DNA of 41,861 bases from Anaerolineaceae bacterium (GTDB lineage Bacteria; Chloroflexota; Anaerolineae; Anaerolineales; Anaerolineaceae): NCBI GenBank assembly GCA_018056725.1, contig JAGPFF010000017.1:1-41861 (forward strand). Direction: 5' to 3'. Positions 9,805 through 17,523 of this stretch are shown here, one piece after another. The notes under the pieces were generated by a model. That model worked only from the letters and a program-made list of their open reading frames with translations, was not told where the DNA came from and did not search any database. Both the position numbers and the translations under genes were made by a program. Within the stretch, counting starts at the first letter, position 1. The number at the start of each line of letters is the position of its first letter.

Positions 9805-9817
9805 CAAATTAGCAGCA

Positions 9818-9907
9818 CAACGGGGAGCCTGGCAAAACAGGCTGAGAGTAGGGTCATTACCCTTTACCCGCATTACCTGATCCGGATCATACCGGCGGAG
9901 GGATAGT
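9818..9907 (+). ncRNA. TPP (THI-box) riboswitch
   Basis: The conserved THI elements are all present: CGGGGAGCC with the CTGAGA motif after a short hairpin, a variable stem around TAGGGTCATTACCCTTTA, then ACCTGATCCGGATCATACC and GGCGGAGGGA. In known THI boxes the CTGAGA region binds the pyrimidine ring of TPP and the distal arm binds its pyrophosphate. It sits between the promoter at 9776 and thiamine pyrophosphokinase, so it should reduce expression of the operon when TPP is high. Confidence 0.96.
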
Positions 9908-9921
9908 TAAGAATACACCAG

Positions 9922-10598: not shown

Positions 10599-11681
10599 AT
10601 GAAATTTCTCAACAATTTCCTTATAGCCTGTCTGCTTTTACTTCTGGCACTTGGCGGTTGCGCGCCGGCAGCTCAACCGGTCACCACTCCCACCCCGGTT
10701 ACGCTTACGGTAATGACGCACGACTCCTTTGCCATTTCACAAGCGATCGTCCAGGCTTTCGAGGAAGAGAACCAGGTTCAGGTGGTATTTTTGAAATCCG
10801 GTGATACCGGCGCAGCCCTCAACCGGGCGATCCTTACCAAGGAATCACCCGAAGCCGATGTGTTTTATGGGGTGGATAATACCTTTCTTTCAAGGGCGAT
10901 ACAGGAAGGGATTTTTGAGCCCTATACCTCCCCATTGTTGGAGAATATTCCGGATTCCTTCAAGAACTCCCTTTCAGGAATGGTTGCCCCGATTGATTAT
11001 GGGGATGTGTGCATCAATTATGACCGCGCCTGGTTTGCAGCCAGAGGGTTGGAAGCGCCGCAGAGCCTGGATGACCTCCTCCTACCGGAGTATGGCGGAA
11101 AAGAGGGTGAAGGGCTGCTTGCGGTGGAAAATCCGGCGACTTCTTCGCCCGGGTTGGCATTTCTACTGACCACAATTGCTCAGTACGGGGAGGAAGGTTA
11201 TCTCGATTACTGGCAGGCACTCAAAGCCAATGGGGTTGTAGTCGTTAACGATTGGGAAACAGCATATTACACCAATTTCTCTGCTTCTTCAGGGAAAGGT
11301 GCCCAGCCAATGGTTGTCTCTTATGCCACCAGTCCGGTCGCTGAGGTGATCTATGCGAGCAGCCCACTGAGCGAAGCTCCAACTGCTTCGATCACCGCGC
11401 CAGCTACCTGTTTTCGCCAGATCGAGTACGCCGGGATTCTCAAAGGGACCTCTCATTTAGATCTGGCGCAGCGTTGGATCGATTTTATGCTTTCACCCCG
11501 GTTTCAAGAAGACCTGCCCTTACAAAATTTCGTTTTTCCTGTGAATCCAACGGCTGTACTTCCAGAGGAGTTCGTAAAATATGCTTCTGTAGCGGAAGAA
11601 CCCGCCATGCTTGACCCGGTGCTGATCGCAAACCGTCGTGATCAATGGATCCGGGATTGGGACCGGGTGATGAAGCAGTGA
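10599..11681 (+). CDS. thiB: Thiamine-type ABC transporter substrate-binding lipoprotein
   Basis: A 360-residue extracytoplasmic binding protein of the ThiB/iron-binding structural class. The N-terminus is a lipoprotein signal ending LGGC (Cys21), followed by a short Pro/Thr linker. The mature start VTLTVMTHDSFAIS, the SPEADVFYGVDNTFLSRA segment and DYGDVCINYDRAWF are typical of ThiB. GGGAG lies 9-10 bases before ATG. The gene follows thiN by 5 bp under the TPP riboswitch, which supports thiamine (or its phosphates) as ligand. A ferric-ion ligand is the main family alternative, and the riboswitch argues against it. Confidence 0.9.
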   Translation: MKFLNNFLIACLLLLLALGGCAPAAQPVTTPTPVTLTVMTHDSFAISQAIVQAFEEENQVQVVFLKSGDTGAALNRAILTKESPEADVFYGVDNTFLSRAIQEGIFEPYTSPLLENIPDSFKNSLSGMVAPIDYGDVCINYDRAWFAARGLEAPQSLDDLLLPEYGGKEGEGLLAVENPATSSPGLAFLLTTIAQYGEEGYLDYWQALKANGVVVVNDWETAYYTNFSASSGKGAQPMVVSYATSPVAEVIYASSPLSEAPTASITAPATCFRQIEYAGILKGTSHLDLAQRWIDFMLSPRFQEDLPLQNFVFPVNPTAVLPEEFVKYASVAEEPAMLDPVLIANRRDQWIRDWDRVMKQ

Positions 11682-13372
11682 TTTTCTCTCGTTCCTTTTT
11701 TCAATTTATCAAACGGATAGGAGCGCCTTTATGGGCGCTTCCGGTTACTCTGTTGATCGTTTGTTTTTTCTTTCCACTGGCTAAGGTACTGGGACTCATG
11801 TTCCAGAAAAGCGGTGAAATTTACCTTTCCGCAATCTGGCAGCCACTTGGTTTCACGGTTTATCAGGCAATCCTTTCCACGCTGCTGACGCTGCTCTTTG
11901 GCTTACCTGCCGCGTATGTCTTTACCCGTTTTGATTTTACCGGCAAGCGTTTGCTGCGCATTCTTACCATGCTGCCGTTTATCCTACCTACAGTGGTGGT
12001 GGCTGCAGCTTTCAATGCCTTGCTAGGACCACATGGCTGGATAAACATGGGATTGATGCAGTTAACAGGTTCCGATATACCGCCGGTTCACTTTCTTAAC
12101 ACATTTGGCGCAATTCTAGTGGCACATGTTTTCTACAACGTTTCCATCGTTATCCGTGTGGTTGGAGGAGCCTGGAGCCAGCTCGATCCGCGGCTTGAAC
12201 AATCCGCGAGTGTACTGGGAGCCTCCCCATGGAAAGTCTTTCAAACCATTACTCTTCCTTTGTTACGCCGCTCGATCCTTTCAGCATCCTTGCTCGTCTT
12301 TCTGTTTGATTTTGCCAGCTTTGGCGTCATTTTGATGCTGGGGGGACCGGAGTTTCAAACGCTTGAGGTTGCGGTTTATACACAGGCACTCTATTTTCTT
12401 AACCTGCCCATGGCAGGCATCCTTTCATTGGTGCAATTGCTTTGCACCCTTGGGGTCATGCTGCTGCATGGCAGAGTTAATCGAAGTCAACCGGTTCCCT
12501 TCTTTCCAAGATTCCGGGCGGAAGGGACGCATCCGCCACGGGGTGCAGTTGAAAAGGGGATAGTTACACTTGTGGTTCTTACTCTCTTTTTGTTGCAGGT
12601 CATACCTCTGCTGGCGCTTGCCAGCAGGTCGGTTTTCCGGGTTGAAGCAGAGCGTGGTCAACGGGAGGATGTACAGAGCGGTCTGACTCTGGAATATTAC
12701 GAAGAACTCTTCGTCAATAAAAGAGGAGATGTTTTTTACATTCAACCTGCGCGGGCGATTGCAAATTCGCTGATATTTGCAGGGATAACCATGTTGATTG
12801 CGGTGATCAATGGCAGCTTGATCGCCTATACCCTGGTAAAAGTACCTTCTGCCCGGCGCTGGTTGGATCCTTTGATCATGCTCCCCTTTGGAGCATCCGC
12901 GGTCACACTGGGGCTTGGATTTGTCGTAACGTTTCATGGTTCCACGCTGACTGGTAACGGTTTTCCCTGGTTGATCCCGCTGGCGCACAGCCTGGTTGCC
13001 ATGCCCTTTGTAGTAAGAACGGTTCAGCCGGTGTTAGCCTCCATCCCTCCCTCTCTGGAGCAATCCGCTGCCGTATTGGGCGCCTCACCGCTGCGCGTAT
13101 GGTGGGAAGTGGAAATGCCTTTGATCAGCCGGGCATTCCTTTCTGCAGCGTTGTTCTCTTTTACGATCTCCCTGGGGGAATTCGGAGCGACTTCGTTCAT
13201 TGCCAGGCTGGATAATCCCACCATGCCGCTGGCAATTTATCGCTACCTGTCTCAGCCGGGTGCCTTGAACTACGGGCAGGCGATGGCGATGGCAACGATT
13301 CTGATCGTTATCTGCGGGATTTCACTGCTTTTACTTGAAAATCTAAGCCATGCTGCACTGCATTCAGATTAA
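11678..13372 (+). CDS. thiP: Thiamine-type ABC transporter permease with two fused domains
   Basis: A 564-residue permease with two BPD_transp_1 halves, about 12 membrane helices. Each half has an EAA loop of the form EQSASVLGASPWKVFQTITLP (first half, around residue 180) and EQSAAVLGASPLRVWWEVEMP (second half, around residue 465). This duplicated form is normal for ThiP. The start is GTG 11678, which shares four bases (GTGA) with the binding-protein stop, so translation is probably coupled. An in-frame ATG at 11645 lies within the previous gene and is less likely. The linker between halves is about 60 residues and partly charged. Confidence 0.9.
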   Translation: MIFSRSFFQFIKRIGAPLWALPVTLLIVCFFFPLAKVLGLMFQKSGEIYLSAIWQPLGFTVYQAILSTLLTLLFGLPAAYVFTRFDFTGKRLLRILTMLPFILPTVVVAAAFNALLGPHGWINMGLMQLTGSDIPPVHFLNTFGAILVAHVFYNVSIVIRVVGGAWSQLDPRLEQSASVLGASPWKVFQTITLPLLRRSILSASLLVFLFDFASFGVILMLGGPEFQTLEVAVYTQALYFLNLPMAGILSLVQLLCTLGVMLLHGRVNRSQPVPFFPRFRAEGTHPPRGAVEKGIVTLVVLTLFLLQVIPLLALASRSVFRVEAERGQREDVQSGLTLEYYEELFVNKRGDVFYIQPARAIANSLIFAGITMLIAVINGSLIAYTLVKVPSARRWLDPLIMLPFGASAVTLGLGFVVTFHGSTLTGNGFPWLIPLAHSLVAMPFVVRTVQPVLASIPPSLEQSAAVLGASPLRVWWEVEMPLISRAFLSAALFSFTISLGEFGATSFIARLDNPTMPLAIYRYLSQPGALNYGQAMAMATILIVICGISLLLLENLSHAALHSD

Positions 13373-13385
13373 TGGAGTGAGATTA

Positions 13386-14435
13386 ATGCTTGAAGTCCGC
13401 AATCTTTGCAAAAAATATGAAGGAAAGCCGCTCTTGAATGGGGTGGATTTGACCGTAGACGGTGGGGAAACGTTATGCCTCATTGGTAGTTCAGGAAGCG
13501 GAAAAAGCACCCTGCTGCGTATTATTGCCGGGATTGAGTCTGCGGATTCGGGGAGTGTTTGCTGGCAGGGGGAGGATCTCCGTGCTGTTCCGGGCTATAA
13601 ACGGAATTTTGGCTTGATGTTTCAAGATTACGCGTTGTTCCCTCACCTGACGGTGGCTGAAAATGTCGCTTTTGGCTTGCGCATGCGTCACCTTCAGCGT
13701 GACCAGATCGAGCAAAAAGTTCAGAGCGCTCTCCAACGGGTCAATATGACCTCCTTTCATGACCGAAGGGTGACTGATCTTTCAGGTGGAGAGCAGCAAC
13801 GTATTGCCCTCGCCAGAACGCTTGCGCCGGAACCGCGGTTAATGATGTTCGATGAACCGCTGGCAGCATTAGATCGGAATTTGCGATTTGAATTGCAGGA
13901 AGAACTAAAGGGAATGCTTCATGAAACCGGTATCCCCACCATTTACGTGACCCATGATCAGGAAGAGGCAGCCTTCCTCGGCGATCACCTGGCTCTCCTG
14001 CATGAGGGACGGATTGTGCAGTATGGTTCCCCGGAGGAAGTGTTCCAGTACCCCTCCAGTCGATGGGTGGCGGAGTTCCTGGGATTTCACGGGTTTATCG
14101 ACGGCGTGGTGTGCGATCTTTCACCTTTGGCGGTTAAAACAGCTCTTGGGGTTTTGCATCCACAGGCTGCGCCAGGTTCCGAGCAACCCTCCCTCGGCGA
14201 GACAGTCACTTTGTTGATCCGCCCCAGGAAAATTTTGCTGAAAGGAGAGGGAATCGGGCAGGATCAAATTGAGGGAGAGGTGATTGACAACCGTTTTCTC
14301 GGCAATTTTTACCGGGTGGAATTTAGATTATGCACGGGTGCGAGCCTGGAATTTATGTCCCCAACGCCTTATTCGATAAGGGAAAAGGTGATCCTTCCTC
14401 TGGCTGAGGAGGATATGCTGATTCTAAGCCAATAG
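13386..14435 (+). CDS. Thiamine-type ABC transporter ATP-binding protein
   Basis: A 349-residue ABC ATPase. Walker A GSSGSGKST, Q-loop MFQDYALFPHLT, signature LSGGEQQRIALAR, Walker B LMMFDEPLAALD and the switch VTHDQEEA are intact. Residues from about 240 form a C-terminal regulatory domain of TOBE/MOP type, so the protein resembles FbpC/PotA in length rather than the 230-residue enterobacterial ThiQ. ATG 13386 follows GGAG at 8 bases; an upstream frame from 13350 overlaps the permease and lacks a ribosome site. It should energise the permease encoded immediately upstream. It is the last gene of the riboswitch operon, and it converges on the small membrane-protein operon. Confidence 0.88.
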   Translation: MLEVRNLCKKYEGKPLLNGVDLTVDGGETLCLIGSSGSGKSTLLRIIAGIESADSGSVCWQGEDLRAVPGYKRNFGLMFQDYALFPHLTVAENVAFGLRMRHLQRDQIEQKVQSALQRVNMTSFHDRRVTDLSGGEQQRIALARTLAPEPRLMMFDEPLAALDRNLRFELQEELKGMLHETGIPTIYVTHDQEEAAFLGDHLALLHEGRIVQYGSPEEVFQYPSSRWVAEFLGFHGFIDGVVCDLSPLAVKTALGVLHPQAAPGSEQPSLGETVTLLIRPRKILLKGEGIGQDQIEGEVIDNRFLGNFYRVEFRLCTGASLEFMSPTPYSIREKVILPLAEEDMLILSQ

Positions 14436-15218: not shown

Positions 15219-16016
15219 TTACCAGGTTCCGCTTAATTGAAAGCGGAGTAAATCCATTAAACCAATTTGCAGAATAGCAGCGATGGATCCGATAATAAAT
15301 ATACGGCATCCGTCCTTAAAAAGGTGCAAGGTATTTTCTTTTCGTAAAATGATGCAAACGATGAGCGAATAAAGCATGCTTAATATGCCAAAAATTGTAA
15401 CCGTTGAAAGCACAGCCACAGGGTAATAGAGAATTGGGAGGTCAGCCAGGATCAGGGCGCCTGCCGCGAGACAAAGGAGCAGGAGGAGAGTGAACTGCCT
15501 CCAGCTCGCCAGGATTGGGGCAGGGGTTGGGTTCACCCATAAGGTCTGCTGCCAGAGGGGCAAGACCAGGTTTGCCAGGGTGATGCCCATGAGAAATCCG
15601 GTGATGAGGCGGATAAGATTGGAGGATGGGTAGAGAGGGGCAAATCCGGGGAACAGGGAGAGGGTTGAATGGATACCATCTACTGCGAAGGCTATGAAAA
15701 AGATTCCCAGCAGAATGATTTTTCCGCGTGAAGGGAACCCGGAACGCCTGTCGCGGGGATAGAGGTAAATCAGAGAAATGAACAGACCTAAAAAGGTGCC
15801 CGTACAACGCGCGCAAAGCGGCAGTACTTTTCCGCCAATTGAGTAGGAATGAGATTCAAGCTGGTGACAAACTGCAAAGCCTGCCGCATGAGTTTTTCCA
15901 TCTAAACCGGCAGGGGTTAAAAGAAGCCAACCGGTTACCAATGACAGTGCCAGGAAGGCAAGGACCAGGTTCTTAAGAGGCATCCGTTGCGGGTGGGGAG
16001 GCTTACTCTCATTCAT
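15219..16016 (-). CDS. DUF2085 membrane protein
   Basis: A 265-residue membrane protein with about six hydrophobic segments. The diagnostic stretch is FAVCHQLESHSYSIGGKVLPLCARCTG (around residues 50-77): Cys, His and a C-x-x-C pair near a membrane edge, typical of DUF2085 and suggestive of a metal or redox site, though no function is established. The promoter TTGCTA (16048-16053) and TATAAT (16025-16030) lie so close that transcription would start at about the ATG itself. No Shine-Dalgarno sequence is present, so the message may be leaderless. Confidence 0.82.
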   Translation of the reverse strand: MNESKPPHPQRMPLKNLVLAFLALSLVTGWLLLTPAGLDGKTHAAGFAVCHQLESHSYSIGGKVLPLCARCTGTFLGLFISLIYLYPRDRRSGFPSRGKIILLGIFFIAFAVDGIHSTLSLFPGFAPLYPSSNLIRLITGFLMGITLANLVLPLWQQTLWVNPTPAPILASWRQFTLLLLLCLAAGALILADLPILYYPVAVLSTVTIFGILSMLYSLIVCIILRKENTLHLFKDGCRIFIIGSIAAILQIGLMDLLRFQLSGTW

Positions 16017-16064: not shown

Positions 16065-16093
16065 TTGACGCAAAATCCGAAATGTGATTTACT
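16065..16093 (+). promoter_or_regulatory. Candidate promoter of the peptidase T leader
   Basis: TTGACG (16065-16070), 17-bp spacer, TTTACT (16088-16093). Transcription starting near 16100 would include the short leader frame and the structured region before peptidase T. A second candidate -10 (TATAAT 16265-16270) lies just before the gene itself. Confidence 0.45.
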
Positions 16094-16132
16094 TATTTTG
16101 TTCCAGGTTGCAATCCTAACGATGAGGAGGTG

Positions 16133-16195
16133 ATGTCTACGATGTGTCATAGTTTTAAACACAGCGCTGCGGCATCCCTCCTCGCGAAGCAGTAG
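16133..16195 (+). CDS. Candidate leader peptide upstream of peptidase T
   Basis: A 20-residue frame from ATG 16133 or a 17-residue one from ATG 16142 (MCHSFKHSAAASLLAKQ), ending at TAG 16193. GAGGAGGTGAT at 16124-16134 is a near-complete complement of the 16S rRNA 3' end; spacing suits ATG 16142 (about 10 bases) better than 16133 (2 bases). The stop falls inside a strong hairpin (16164-16209). The SD core GAGGAGG can pair with CCTCCTC at 16177-16183 in that hairpin, so translation and folding would compete. I do not recognise the peptide. It could be fortuitous, but the ribosome site is unusually good. Confidence 0.4.
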   Translation: MSTMCHSFKHSAAASLLAKQ

Positions 16196-16252
16196 GGAAG
16201 CCGCAGCGCCAAACCCCCGGAGCCGTCAATCTGACGGCTCTGTGGTTTAAAC
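16152..16252 (+). ncRNA. Three-way-junction fold between DUF2085 and peptidase T genes
   Basis: Three nested or adjacent stems close on one another. An outer stem GTTTTAAACACA (16152-16163) pairs with TGTGGTTTAAAC (16241-16252) with two single-base bulges. Inside it lie GCGCTGCGGC/GCCGCAGCGC (16164-16173/16200-16209, extended by TCCCT/AGGGA) and GAGCCGTCA/TGACGGCTC (16220-16228/16232-16240, 3-nt loop). There is no U-tract. This may be a cis-acting leader RNA, or a palindromic mobile repeat with imperfect terminal inverted repeats. I know no matching family. Confidence 0.55.
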
Positions 16253-16296
16253 CCTCACTTGCTATATAATCAAAGTACTTAATCATTGGAGGACCT

Positions 16297-17523
16297 ATGC
16301 AGACTGTACGCGACCGTTTTATCAAATATGCCAAAATTCATACGACTTCTCTTCGAGATTCTACGGACATCCCCAGCAGCCCCATTCAGTTTGATCTGGC
16401 GCGCGAGTTGGAAAAAGATTTGCAGGAAATTGGACTCGAAGAAATCAGCCTGGATGACCATTGTTATCTGATGGCTACTTTGCCAGCAACAACGGATCGC
16501 GCCCTGCCGGTCATCGGTTTTATTGCTCACATGGATACCAGCCCGGATATGAGTGGAGAAAATGTTAACCCTCAAATCATCGAAAAGTTTGATGGGGGAG
16601 AAATTGTATTGAATGAAGCCCTCAATGTCCGTATGAAACCGGAGGAATTTCCCGAATTAGGAAAATACATCGGGCAGGAGTTAATAACCACCGATGGCAC
16701 CACTCTGCTTGGCGCCGATGACAAAGCTGGTGTGGCGGCGATTGTTTCGGCAATGGAGTATTTGATCCATCACCCTGAGATTCCCCATGGCAAAATCAGA
16801 ATCGGTTTTACGCCGGATGAGGAGATTGGTCATGGCGCTGATCTATTTGACGTTGCGAAATTCGGCGCGGAGTATGCCTATACGGTGGATGGGGGTGAGA
16901 TTGGAGAACTTGAATATGAGACTTTTAATGCGGCAGAAGCCGTTATAACCTTTTATGGTCGCAATGTTCACCCGGGCGTTGCGAAAAATAAAATGATCAA
17001 CTCGTTGCTTCTGGCGATGGAATTTAACGCTATGCTTCCGGTTAACGAAAGACCGGAATATACCGAAGGGCGTGAAGGTTTTATTCATCTTATTATGATG
17101 AATGGGACAGTGGAATTGACCCGGTTGGCATATATCCTTCGTGATCACGACCGTGCCCGGCTTGAAAAACGTAAACAATATATGATCGATGCGGCAACCT
17201 TGCTAAACCGTCGCCTTGGCGAGGGTCACGTGGAACTTGAAATCAATGACCAGTACTACAACATGCGCGAAAAGATTGAACCCGTCTTCCACATCGTTGA
17301 AAATGCCAGACAGGCAATGATTTCATTGGGGATTGAACCGATAATTGTTCCCGTCCGTGGCGGCACGGATGGCTCCCGCCTATCCTACATGGGTTTGCCG
17401 ACGCCAAATCTCTTCACCGGCGGGTTGTATGCTCACGGAAAGTATGAGGTTCTTCCAACCCGAAGCCTCGAAAGGGCAGTCGATGTGATCGTGCGCATCG
17501 TTGAGATGTCAGGGAATGCCTAA
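16297..17523 (+). CDS. pepT: Peptidase T, tripeptide aminopeptidase
   Basis: A 408-residue cytoplasmic M20 family dizinc aminopeptidase that releases the N-terminal residue of tripeptides. Motifs in order: GFIAHMDTSPD (zinc-binding His and Asp, about residue 78), LGADDKAG (bridging Asp), TPDEEIG (catalytic Glu and zinc-binding Glu, about residue 174), TVDGGEIGELEYETFNA, and RGGTDGSRLS plus LPTPNLFTGG (about residues 350-375). The length fits PepT (about 410). GGAGG lies 4-5 bases before ATG. The gene has a long, structured upstream region and ends in a bidirectional terminator, so it appears to be a single-gene unit. It would finish the degradation of peptides produced by oligoendopeptidases. 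Confidence 0.95.
   Translation: MQTVRDRFIKYAKIHTTSLRDSTDIPSSPIQFDLARELEKDLQEIGLEEISLDDHCYLMATLPATTDRALPVIGFIAHMDTSPDMSGENVNPQIIEKFDGGEIVLNEALNVRMKPEEFPELGKYIGQELITTDGTTLLGADDKAGVAAIVSAMEYLIHHPEIPHGKIRIGFTPDEEIGHGADLFDVAKFGAEYAYTVDGGEIGELEYETFNAAEAVITFYGRNVHPGVAKNKMINSLLLAMEFNAMLPVNERPEYTEGREGFIHLIMMNGTVELTRLAYILRDHDRARLEKRKQYMIDAATLLNRRLGEGHVELEINDQYYNMREKIEPVFHIVENARQAMISLGIEPIIVPVRGGTDGSRLSYMGLPTPNLFTGGLYAHGKYEVLPTRSLERAVDVIVRIVEMSGNA

Follow-up and report, generated by a model that had tools for sequence, protein, structure and literature searches.

Positions 16065 to 16250 of the 41,861-nt stretch of Anaerolineaceae DNA analysed here (the window) resemble a standalone small gene, in which a promoter-like site is followed by an extended Shine-Dalgarno (SD) sequence, a 17-codon reading frame, a hairpin made of codons, and a terminator-like hairpin. 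Judging from the sequence, we propose that this is a small RNA gene, probably a switch gated by its own translation, and put the chances of this reading a little short of even.

All the features described here lie on the forward strand unless stated otherwise, and were compared with those of relatives in two alignments, A1 (the window and 27 of 29 BLAST loci, L026 and L027 being left out) and A2 (110 sequences, namely the window and 109 of 122 nonredundant loci; of the 13 left out, 5 came from outside the class). The promoter suggested in a preliminary description of this DNA is present as a sigma-70-type promoter-like site at 16065 to 16093 (TTGACG, a 17-nt spacer, and TTTACT, the latter preceded at a distance of one base by TG). 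Same-genus relatives carry a promoter-like site at the matching position, and a sigma-70-like site with at least 9 of 12 matches was found in 126 of 147 loci versus 47 of 441 shuffled controls, with 11 matches in 65 of the 147. Further downstream lies the conserved 5' motif GCYATCCT (here GCAATCCT, 16110 to 16117), which as GC[ACT]AT[CT] stands upstream of the SD in 108 of the 110 A2 sequences; in the window, this almost invariant motif begins some 14 nt upstream of it. A stem of at least 5 pairs between promoter and motif occurred in 65 of 147 loci versus 20% of shuffles, which is suggestive only. The ribosome site noted in the preliminary description could be read directly (GAGGAGGTGATG, 16124 to 16135). 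Its extended form is referred to here as region 1 (GAGGAGGTGATGTC, 16124 to 16137), and the AGGAGGTGAT within it, at 16125 to 16134, is complementary over 10 nt to the 16S rRNA tail ATCACCTCCT. The micro-ORF that follows (MCHSFKHSAAASLLAKQ, 16142 to 16195) runs for 17 codons from the ATG at 16142 to a TAG at 16193 to 16195, and an in-frame ATG at 16133 would prefix MST and give 20 codons, in agreement with the 17 to 20 codons originally claimed; neither the Cys nor the His pointed out in the same claim is conserved in relatives.

Within the micro-ORF lies region 2 (GGCATC and CCTCCTC, 16171 to 16183), which is complementary to region 1. It is overlapped by hairpin 1 (16164 to 16209), in which GCGCTGCGGC (16164 to 16173) pairs with GCCGCAGCGC (16200 to 16209) and an inner CCCT (16176 to 16179) with AGGG (16194 to 16197); the 3' arm of this hairpin, region 3 (16200 to 16209), shares with region 1 its partner bases in region 2. 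The terminator-like hairpin 2 (16220 to 16240) has double changes in 8 of its 9 pairs. It is followed by no clear T run in the window's genus and by a T-rich tail in many relatives: at least 5 T in the 10-nt tail were counted in 69 of 148 loci (9 loci in which no hairpin was found being scored as having none) versus 6% of random 10-mers. The T run being weak, read-through into pepT is possible in the window's genus. A TATAAT at 16265 to 16270, outside the element, could serve pepT alone; it has no good -35 box and was not called by the promoter scan. As a whole, positions 16100 to 16296 fold more strongly than their dinucleotide shuffles (z of -4.94; 0 of 200 shuffles). The preliminary description had drawn three stems, of which hairpins 1 and 2 stand. 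The outer stem TTTAAAC/GTTTAAA is, by eye, lost even among same-genus copies (e.g., L006 and L010), and we rejected the three-way junction that it would close, as this is by eye not maintained in relatives.

The pairing of the SD with the reading frame was found unprompted by RNAalifold in A1, with 99.5% of cells paired over the 28 sequences and with covariation. In the window, GAGGAGG.GATGTC (16124 to 16137) and GGCATC-CCTCCTC (16171 to 16183) form 13 pairs with one bulged T, so that the GAGGAGG/CCTCCTC pairing first claimed is real, longer than was thought, and kept in relatives. A2 was split by the letter that sets the register into 74 sequences with a CACCTC-type region 2 and 36 with a CCTCCTC-type one; the cells of the SD:ORF helix were paired in 775 of 814 and 455 of 468 cases, respectively, and those of hairpin 1 in 788 of 813 and 362 of 396. 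Double changes affected 5 of the 12 pairs of hairpin 1 in A1 and 85 + 28 of its cells in A2, where each cell is a counted sequence and not an independent event. The double changes in the SD:ORF helix were concentrated at columns 38-104, 42-100, and 29-112 of A2. In both clades, the 1:2 pairing and the 2:3 pairing each beat all 2,000 between-species shuffles of the partner segment, a control that leaves relatedness in. An exact Watson-Crick run of 6 between the SD and the frame was absent from 13 of 152 loci.

How the two helices share region 2 differs between groups. Column 100 is common to both, and the triple 42/100/146 reads C-G-C in 48, T-A-T in 23, and is mixed in 39 of the 110 sequences, the top pair of helix 1:2 (columns 42-100) being broken in 33 of the 110. 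In the register found within the class, the helices overlap by only 4 to 5 columns, and both could therefore form at once, giving an H-type pseudoknot in which the loop side of hairpin 1 carries the anti-SD. The overlap extends to 9 to 10 nt in a number of out-of-class loci, where the helices would have to exclude each other. In nested folding of the 121 loci with a recognizable region-2 motif, the SD was predicted to be masked, with a median unpaired probability of 0.02 for the nascent RNA and 0.10 for the complete one, and the predicted energy of the SD with the loop side of hairpin 1 had a median of -12.7 kcal/mol versus -7.0 kcal/mol for shuffled partners. The earlier suggestion that translation of the peptide and folding would exclude each other is thus well supported by the covariation and by the conserved frame described below.

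We then compared the element with the 16S rRNA itself. The 16S rRNA ends in GGATCACCTCCTTT in 15 16S loci, which came from 11 of the 15 genomes searched; the window's own genome gave no 16S match. The 10-nt complement of this tail, AGGAGGTGAT, is present in 62 of the 110 A2 sequences, and GGAGGTG in 109 of them. In region 2, 46 of the 74 sequences of the class clade contain ATCACCTC, which matches a portion of the 16S tail exactly. Since the SD complements the 16S tail and region 2 copies part of it, the RNA holds both halves of the SD interaction, and the simplest reading would be that this internal copy and real 30S subunits compete for the SD. For the 5' motif the picture was different: GGATRGC, the complement of GCYATCC, was not found in the 16S loci read, and the looser AGGATGG turned up in 3 of these 15 alone, some 860 nt ahead of the end; no complement lay near the 3' end.

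The position of region 2 within an open frame is conserved. Among the 125 of 148 loci with a recognizable region-2 motif, which alone the frame test counts, the motif was in frame with the first ATG (taken at least 5 nt past GGAGG, an open frame not being required) in 121, at seven in-frame spacings from 27 to 45 nt, and out of frame in 4. The first stop fell 12 to 24 nt after the start of the motif in 123 of the 125, and the two remaining frames hit a stop before codon 11 in 88%. The frame itself measures 14 to 21 codons in 148 other loci, the set left from 154 after exclusion of L183 and L232, which have no frame, and of 4 repeats, including the window's copy (L144). The stop codons of these frames are TAG in 87 of 148 and TGA in 8 of 148, versus 52 and 107, respectively, of 228 background frames (taken mechanically from both strands, longer than 200 codons).

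The peptide is held far less firmly. Of the codon changes in the hairpin arm that preserve pairing, 44 sequence-codon cases were nonsynonymous and 41 synonymous. The GGCATCACC-type stretch is read as A-S-P or A-S-L in the window's own class and as G-I-T, G-V-T, and the like in out-of-class families, which use another frame for the shared RNA stretch. Upstream of region 2, serine is encoded by AGT in 77% of cases versus 9.9% in background frames, and the AGT lies mostly 19 to 21 nt before region 2 (A in 84%, G in 89%, and T in 83% of 121 loci), a fixed distance that points to an RNA motif. From the kept frame, the nonsynonymous compensated changes, the use of another frame outside the class, and the placement of AGT, we infer that the RNA and the passage of the ribosome are under selection and the peptide less so. 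The conserved frame can alternatively mean that the peptide matters, and recurring residues do exist (Arg in last position in 62 and Asp at position 2 in 56 of the 148 peptides).

In the mechanism that we propose for the switch, the codons of region 2 inside the micro-ORF would pair with the SD in region 1 and mask it. A loaded ribosome would open the RNA by reading through these codons. In the folded RNA, hairpin 1 would hold region 2 while its loop side stays paired with the SD, so that the class would have an H-type pseudoknot, and several other families of the phylum a simple switch between two states. The passage of the ribosome would count for more than the peptide made. As to the output, our guess is that translation may alter the lifetime or accessibility of the remaining RNA (region 3), which would then act on other RNAs. 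Given the resemblance of region 2 to the 16S tail, this partial copy would compete with real 30S subunits for the SD, and translation of the frame would report the number of free ribosomes. This scheme can be extended, tentatively, to an RNA widespread in Chloroflexota that would measure free ribosomes by the competition of real 30S subunits with a copy of the 16S tail, inside its own frame, for a near-perfect SD, would be selected for ribosome passage and not for the peptide, and would form a housekeeping RNA class of its own; this extension is on balance improbable.

The distribution of the element was determined with two covariance models, R1, built from the 28 sequences of A1, and R2, built from A2. 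At an E value of 0.01 or better, BLAST found matches in 37 of 61 genomes (the window's own and relatives), and R1 in 187 of 298 genomes of the class; the search with a covariation model proposed at the outset recovered the fold widely. Among class genomes with a completeness of 90% or more and a contamination of 5% or less, 119 of 189 had an R1 match and 70 had none. In the phylum-wide draw, R1 matched 52 of 201 genomes, and R2 matched 103 of 400 phylum genomes. The 111 class genomes of 298 that gave no match to R1 partly reflect lost sensitivity: when 38 genomes, chosen for the most part as earlier misses, were searched with R2 under laxer filters, 12 of them gave strong matches (E value of at most 2.2e-7), and the class count is therefore a lower bound. 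The same laxer search gave no match at an E value of 0.05 in 23 of the 38, including the family members G031, G627, and G668, in which the element went undetected and may have been lost. Since G031 is a single contig and 99% complete, the element is not essential throughout the class. Copy number was low, with one match in 180 of the 187 carrier genomes and two in 7; the second matches in the window's own assembly and in G237 come from the same hairpin read on the reverse strand. The own assembly, 89% complete, has one copy. Two matches at separate places were seen in G035 (contig C64) and G625 (contigs C4 and C7; both weak, with E values of 7e-4 and 1e-3).

An outgroup control, which took 33 of 79 outgroup loci from genomes that we take to be of the phyla Bacillota and Bacteroidota, gave best matches with E values of 0.003 to 0.044 in 6 of 33 genomes, and the combination of SD, frame, and helices was found in 0 of the 6 matching loci. 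As the weaker phylum matches do no better than the outgroup E value of 0.003, phylum matches near 0.001 to 0.01 are individually no better than background. Of 40 places outside the class taken from the R2 matches in the phylum, 35 had an SD, an ATG, a frame of 10 to 26 codons, and helices of variable strength, for which no score cutoff was set, and 5 did not. The searches point to a predicted small RNA gene in most of the sampled class genomes, detectable beyond the class in the phylum.

Downstream of the element, pepT (peptidase T, 16297 to 17523; TIGR01882, 553.9 bits versus a cutoff of 285.75) begins 56 nt past hairpin 2. In translation attenuators of the ermC and trp type, a ribosome on a short frame sets mutually exclusive helices. 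The element is like them in its helices, and the preliminary description had read it as such a leader of pepT. The element does have the short conserved frame overlapping alternative helices that is expected of an attenuator, and protein clustering of the neighbours showed pepT to come directly after it in 7 of the 13 same-genus loci, the window included. The element differs, however, in having no constant downstream gene. In the neighbour set (74 loci, 71 of them distinct), pepT adjoined none of the remaining loci, so that the fold does not always precede pepT and does so within the genus only; in the same-genus genomes G001, G006, G007, G008, and G009 it was 1.2 to 2.3 kb distant, and in G002 it was on a separate contig. 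Of the 143 loci with a next mechanically called frame, 75 have it on the strand of the element and 68 on the opposite one. With neighbours so varied, and with a promoter-like site and a terminator-like hairpin of its own, the element is by these sequence criteria independent of its neighbours, and attenuation of pepT is unsupported and in our estimate highly improbable. Divergent from the element, a DUF2085 membrane protein (PF09858) is encoded on the reverse strand at 15219 to 16016. Its cluster adjoins 15 loci, of which 9 are same-genus, 3 belong to other genera of this family, and 3 to a different family; we rejected it as a constant neighbour, since, with 9 of the loci from one genus, shared descent may explain the adjacency.

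A palindromic mobile repeat, the rival considered in the preliminary description on account of two near-perfect inverted repeats, has next to no probability in view of the single copy in the own assembly and the single match in most carriers. The only pattern match on a viral contig was, by eye, an ordinary SD ahead of an ordinary gene, without the hairpin, and an origin from phage was likewise rejected. Also very unlikely, although slightly less so than attenuation of pepT, is a type I toxin mRNA of the aapA or hok kind, with its SD masked until processing. The hok transcript is a type I toxin mRNA with metastable hairpins that mask the SD, and the present RNA has its SD masked by an anti-SD as far as covariation and prediction indicate. 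There is a likeness to aapA3 of Helicobacter pylori, for which the excerpt of PMC6733600 used here describes an SD paired with an anti-SD in masking hairpins, one of which extends into the very short ORF, alternative helices that succeed one another, and a codon choice dictated by RNA structure. The element departs from type I toxin mRNAs in that an antisense promoter score of at least 9 was reached in 8 of 148 loci versus 6.5% of shuffles (by a consensus scan only), its peptides are mostly not hydrophobic (GRAVY median of -0.08 and maximum of 1.52 for 148 peptides), and it is single copy in most carriers across the class. An antisense partner was rejected for the same reason, reverse-strand promoter scores being equal to those of shuffles in the 148 loci.

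Two further readings carry more weight. The 14- to 21-residue peptide could itself be the product of a micro-protein gene, with masking of the SD merely limiting its amount. The kept frame and stop, the strong SD, and the recurring Asp and Arg fit this well enough to make it a serious contender, if an unlikely one; however, about half of the codon changes in the hairpin arm that preserve pairing replace the amino acid, the out-of-class families read G-I-T instead of A-S-P, and AGT for Ser sits at mostly one distance from region 2, which argues for an RNA motif. Alternatively, region 2, being like an anti-SD, or region 3 could target other mRNAs, the frame serving only to control exposure of this seed. 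Such a trans-acting RNA would agree with the independence from neighbours, the promoter-like site, and the terminator-like hairpin, and region 2, in its resemblance to the 16S tail, could mask the SDs of other mRNAs; as region 2 is complementary to regions 1 and 3 of its own RNA, it would nevertheless be self-masked, and we consider this reading distinctly unlikely, more so than that of a micro-protein.

Against known RNA families, nothing over the element reached the gathering cutoffs of Rfam 15 in the window and 20 loci, and a riboswitch of a known class was rejected, as no family reaches its cutoff. The best weak match was the PreQ1-III riboswitch (RF02680), which bears a weak resemblance over 16142 to 16265 (19.8 bits versus a gathering cutoff of 63); the element, unlike this riboswitch, has no constant downstream gene. 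The Chloroflexi-1 motif found in PMC2864571, which is an Rfam family (RF01698), gave no match to the element. Elsewhere, the search found only tRNAs and a TPP riboswitch at 9811 to 9920 (68.5 bits), which precedes the permease and ATPase of an ABC transporter (11645 to 14435, by Pfam) that perhaps serves thiamine uptake.

The nearest known parallels to the element are the SD-masking toxin mRNAs discussed above and neighbour-independent small RNA genes that bear a small frame, such as SgrS/SgrT, RNAIII/delta-hemolysin, and SR1/SR1P (as given in the excerpt of PMC5521070 used here). The promoter-like site and the terminator-like hairpin, seen as sequence features, would fit a dual-function small RNA of this kind. 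The element differs from these RNAs in that its frame overlaps the helices of the putative switch and its peptide varies with the pairing kept. In the literature searched, we found no description of a standalone, class-wide RNA that keeps its frame, is free in its peptide, and carries a built-in copy of the 16S tail. The individual parts are known, and what appears to be new, as far as that literature shows, is their combination.

A frame that is conserved together with a peptide that is conserved far less separates conservation of translation from conservation of protein. Should the RNA indeed gauge free ribosomes, their number, on which growth control centres, would be read out directly by an RNA. 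Under the rival readings, too, the gene is widely conserved, has apparently escaped description, and offers a switch that can be put to the test.
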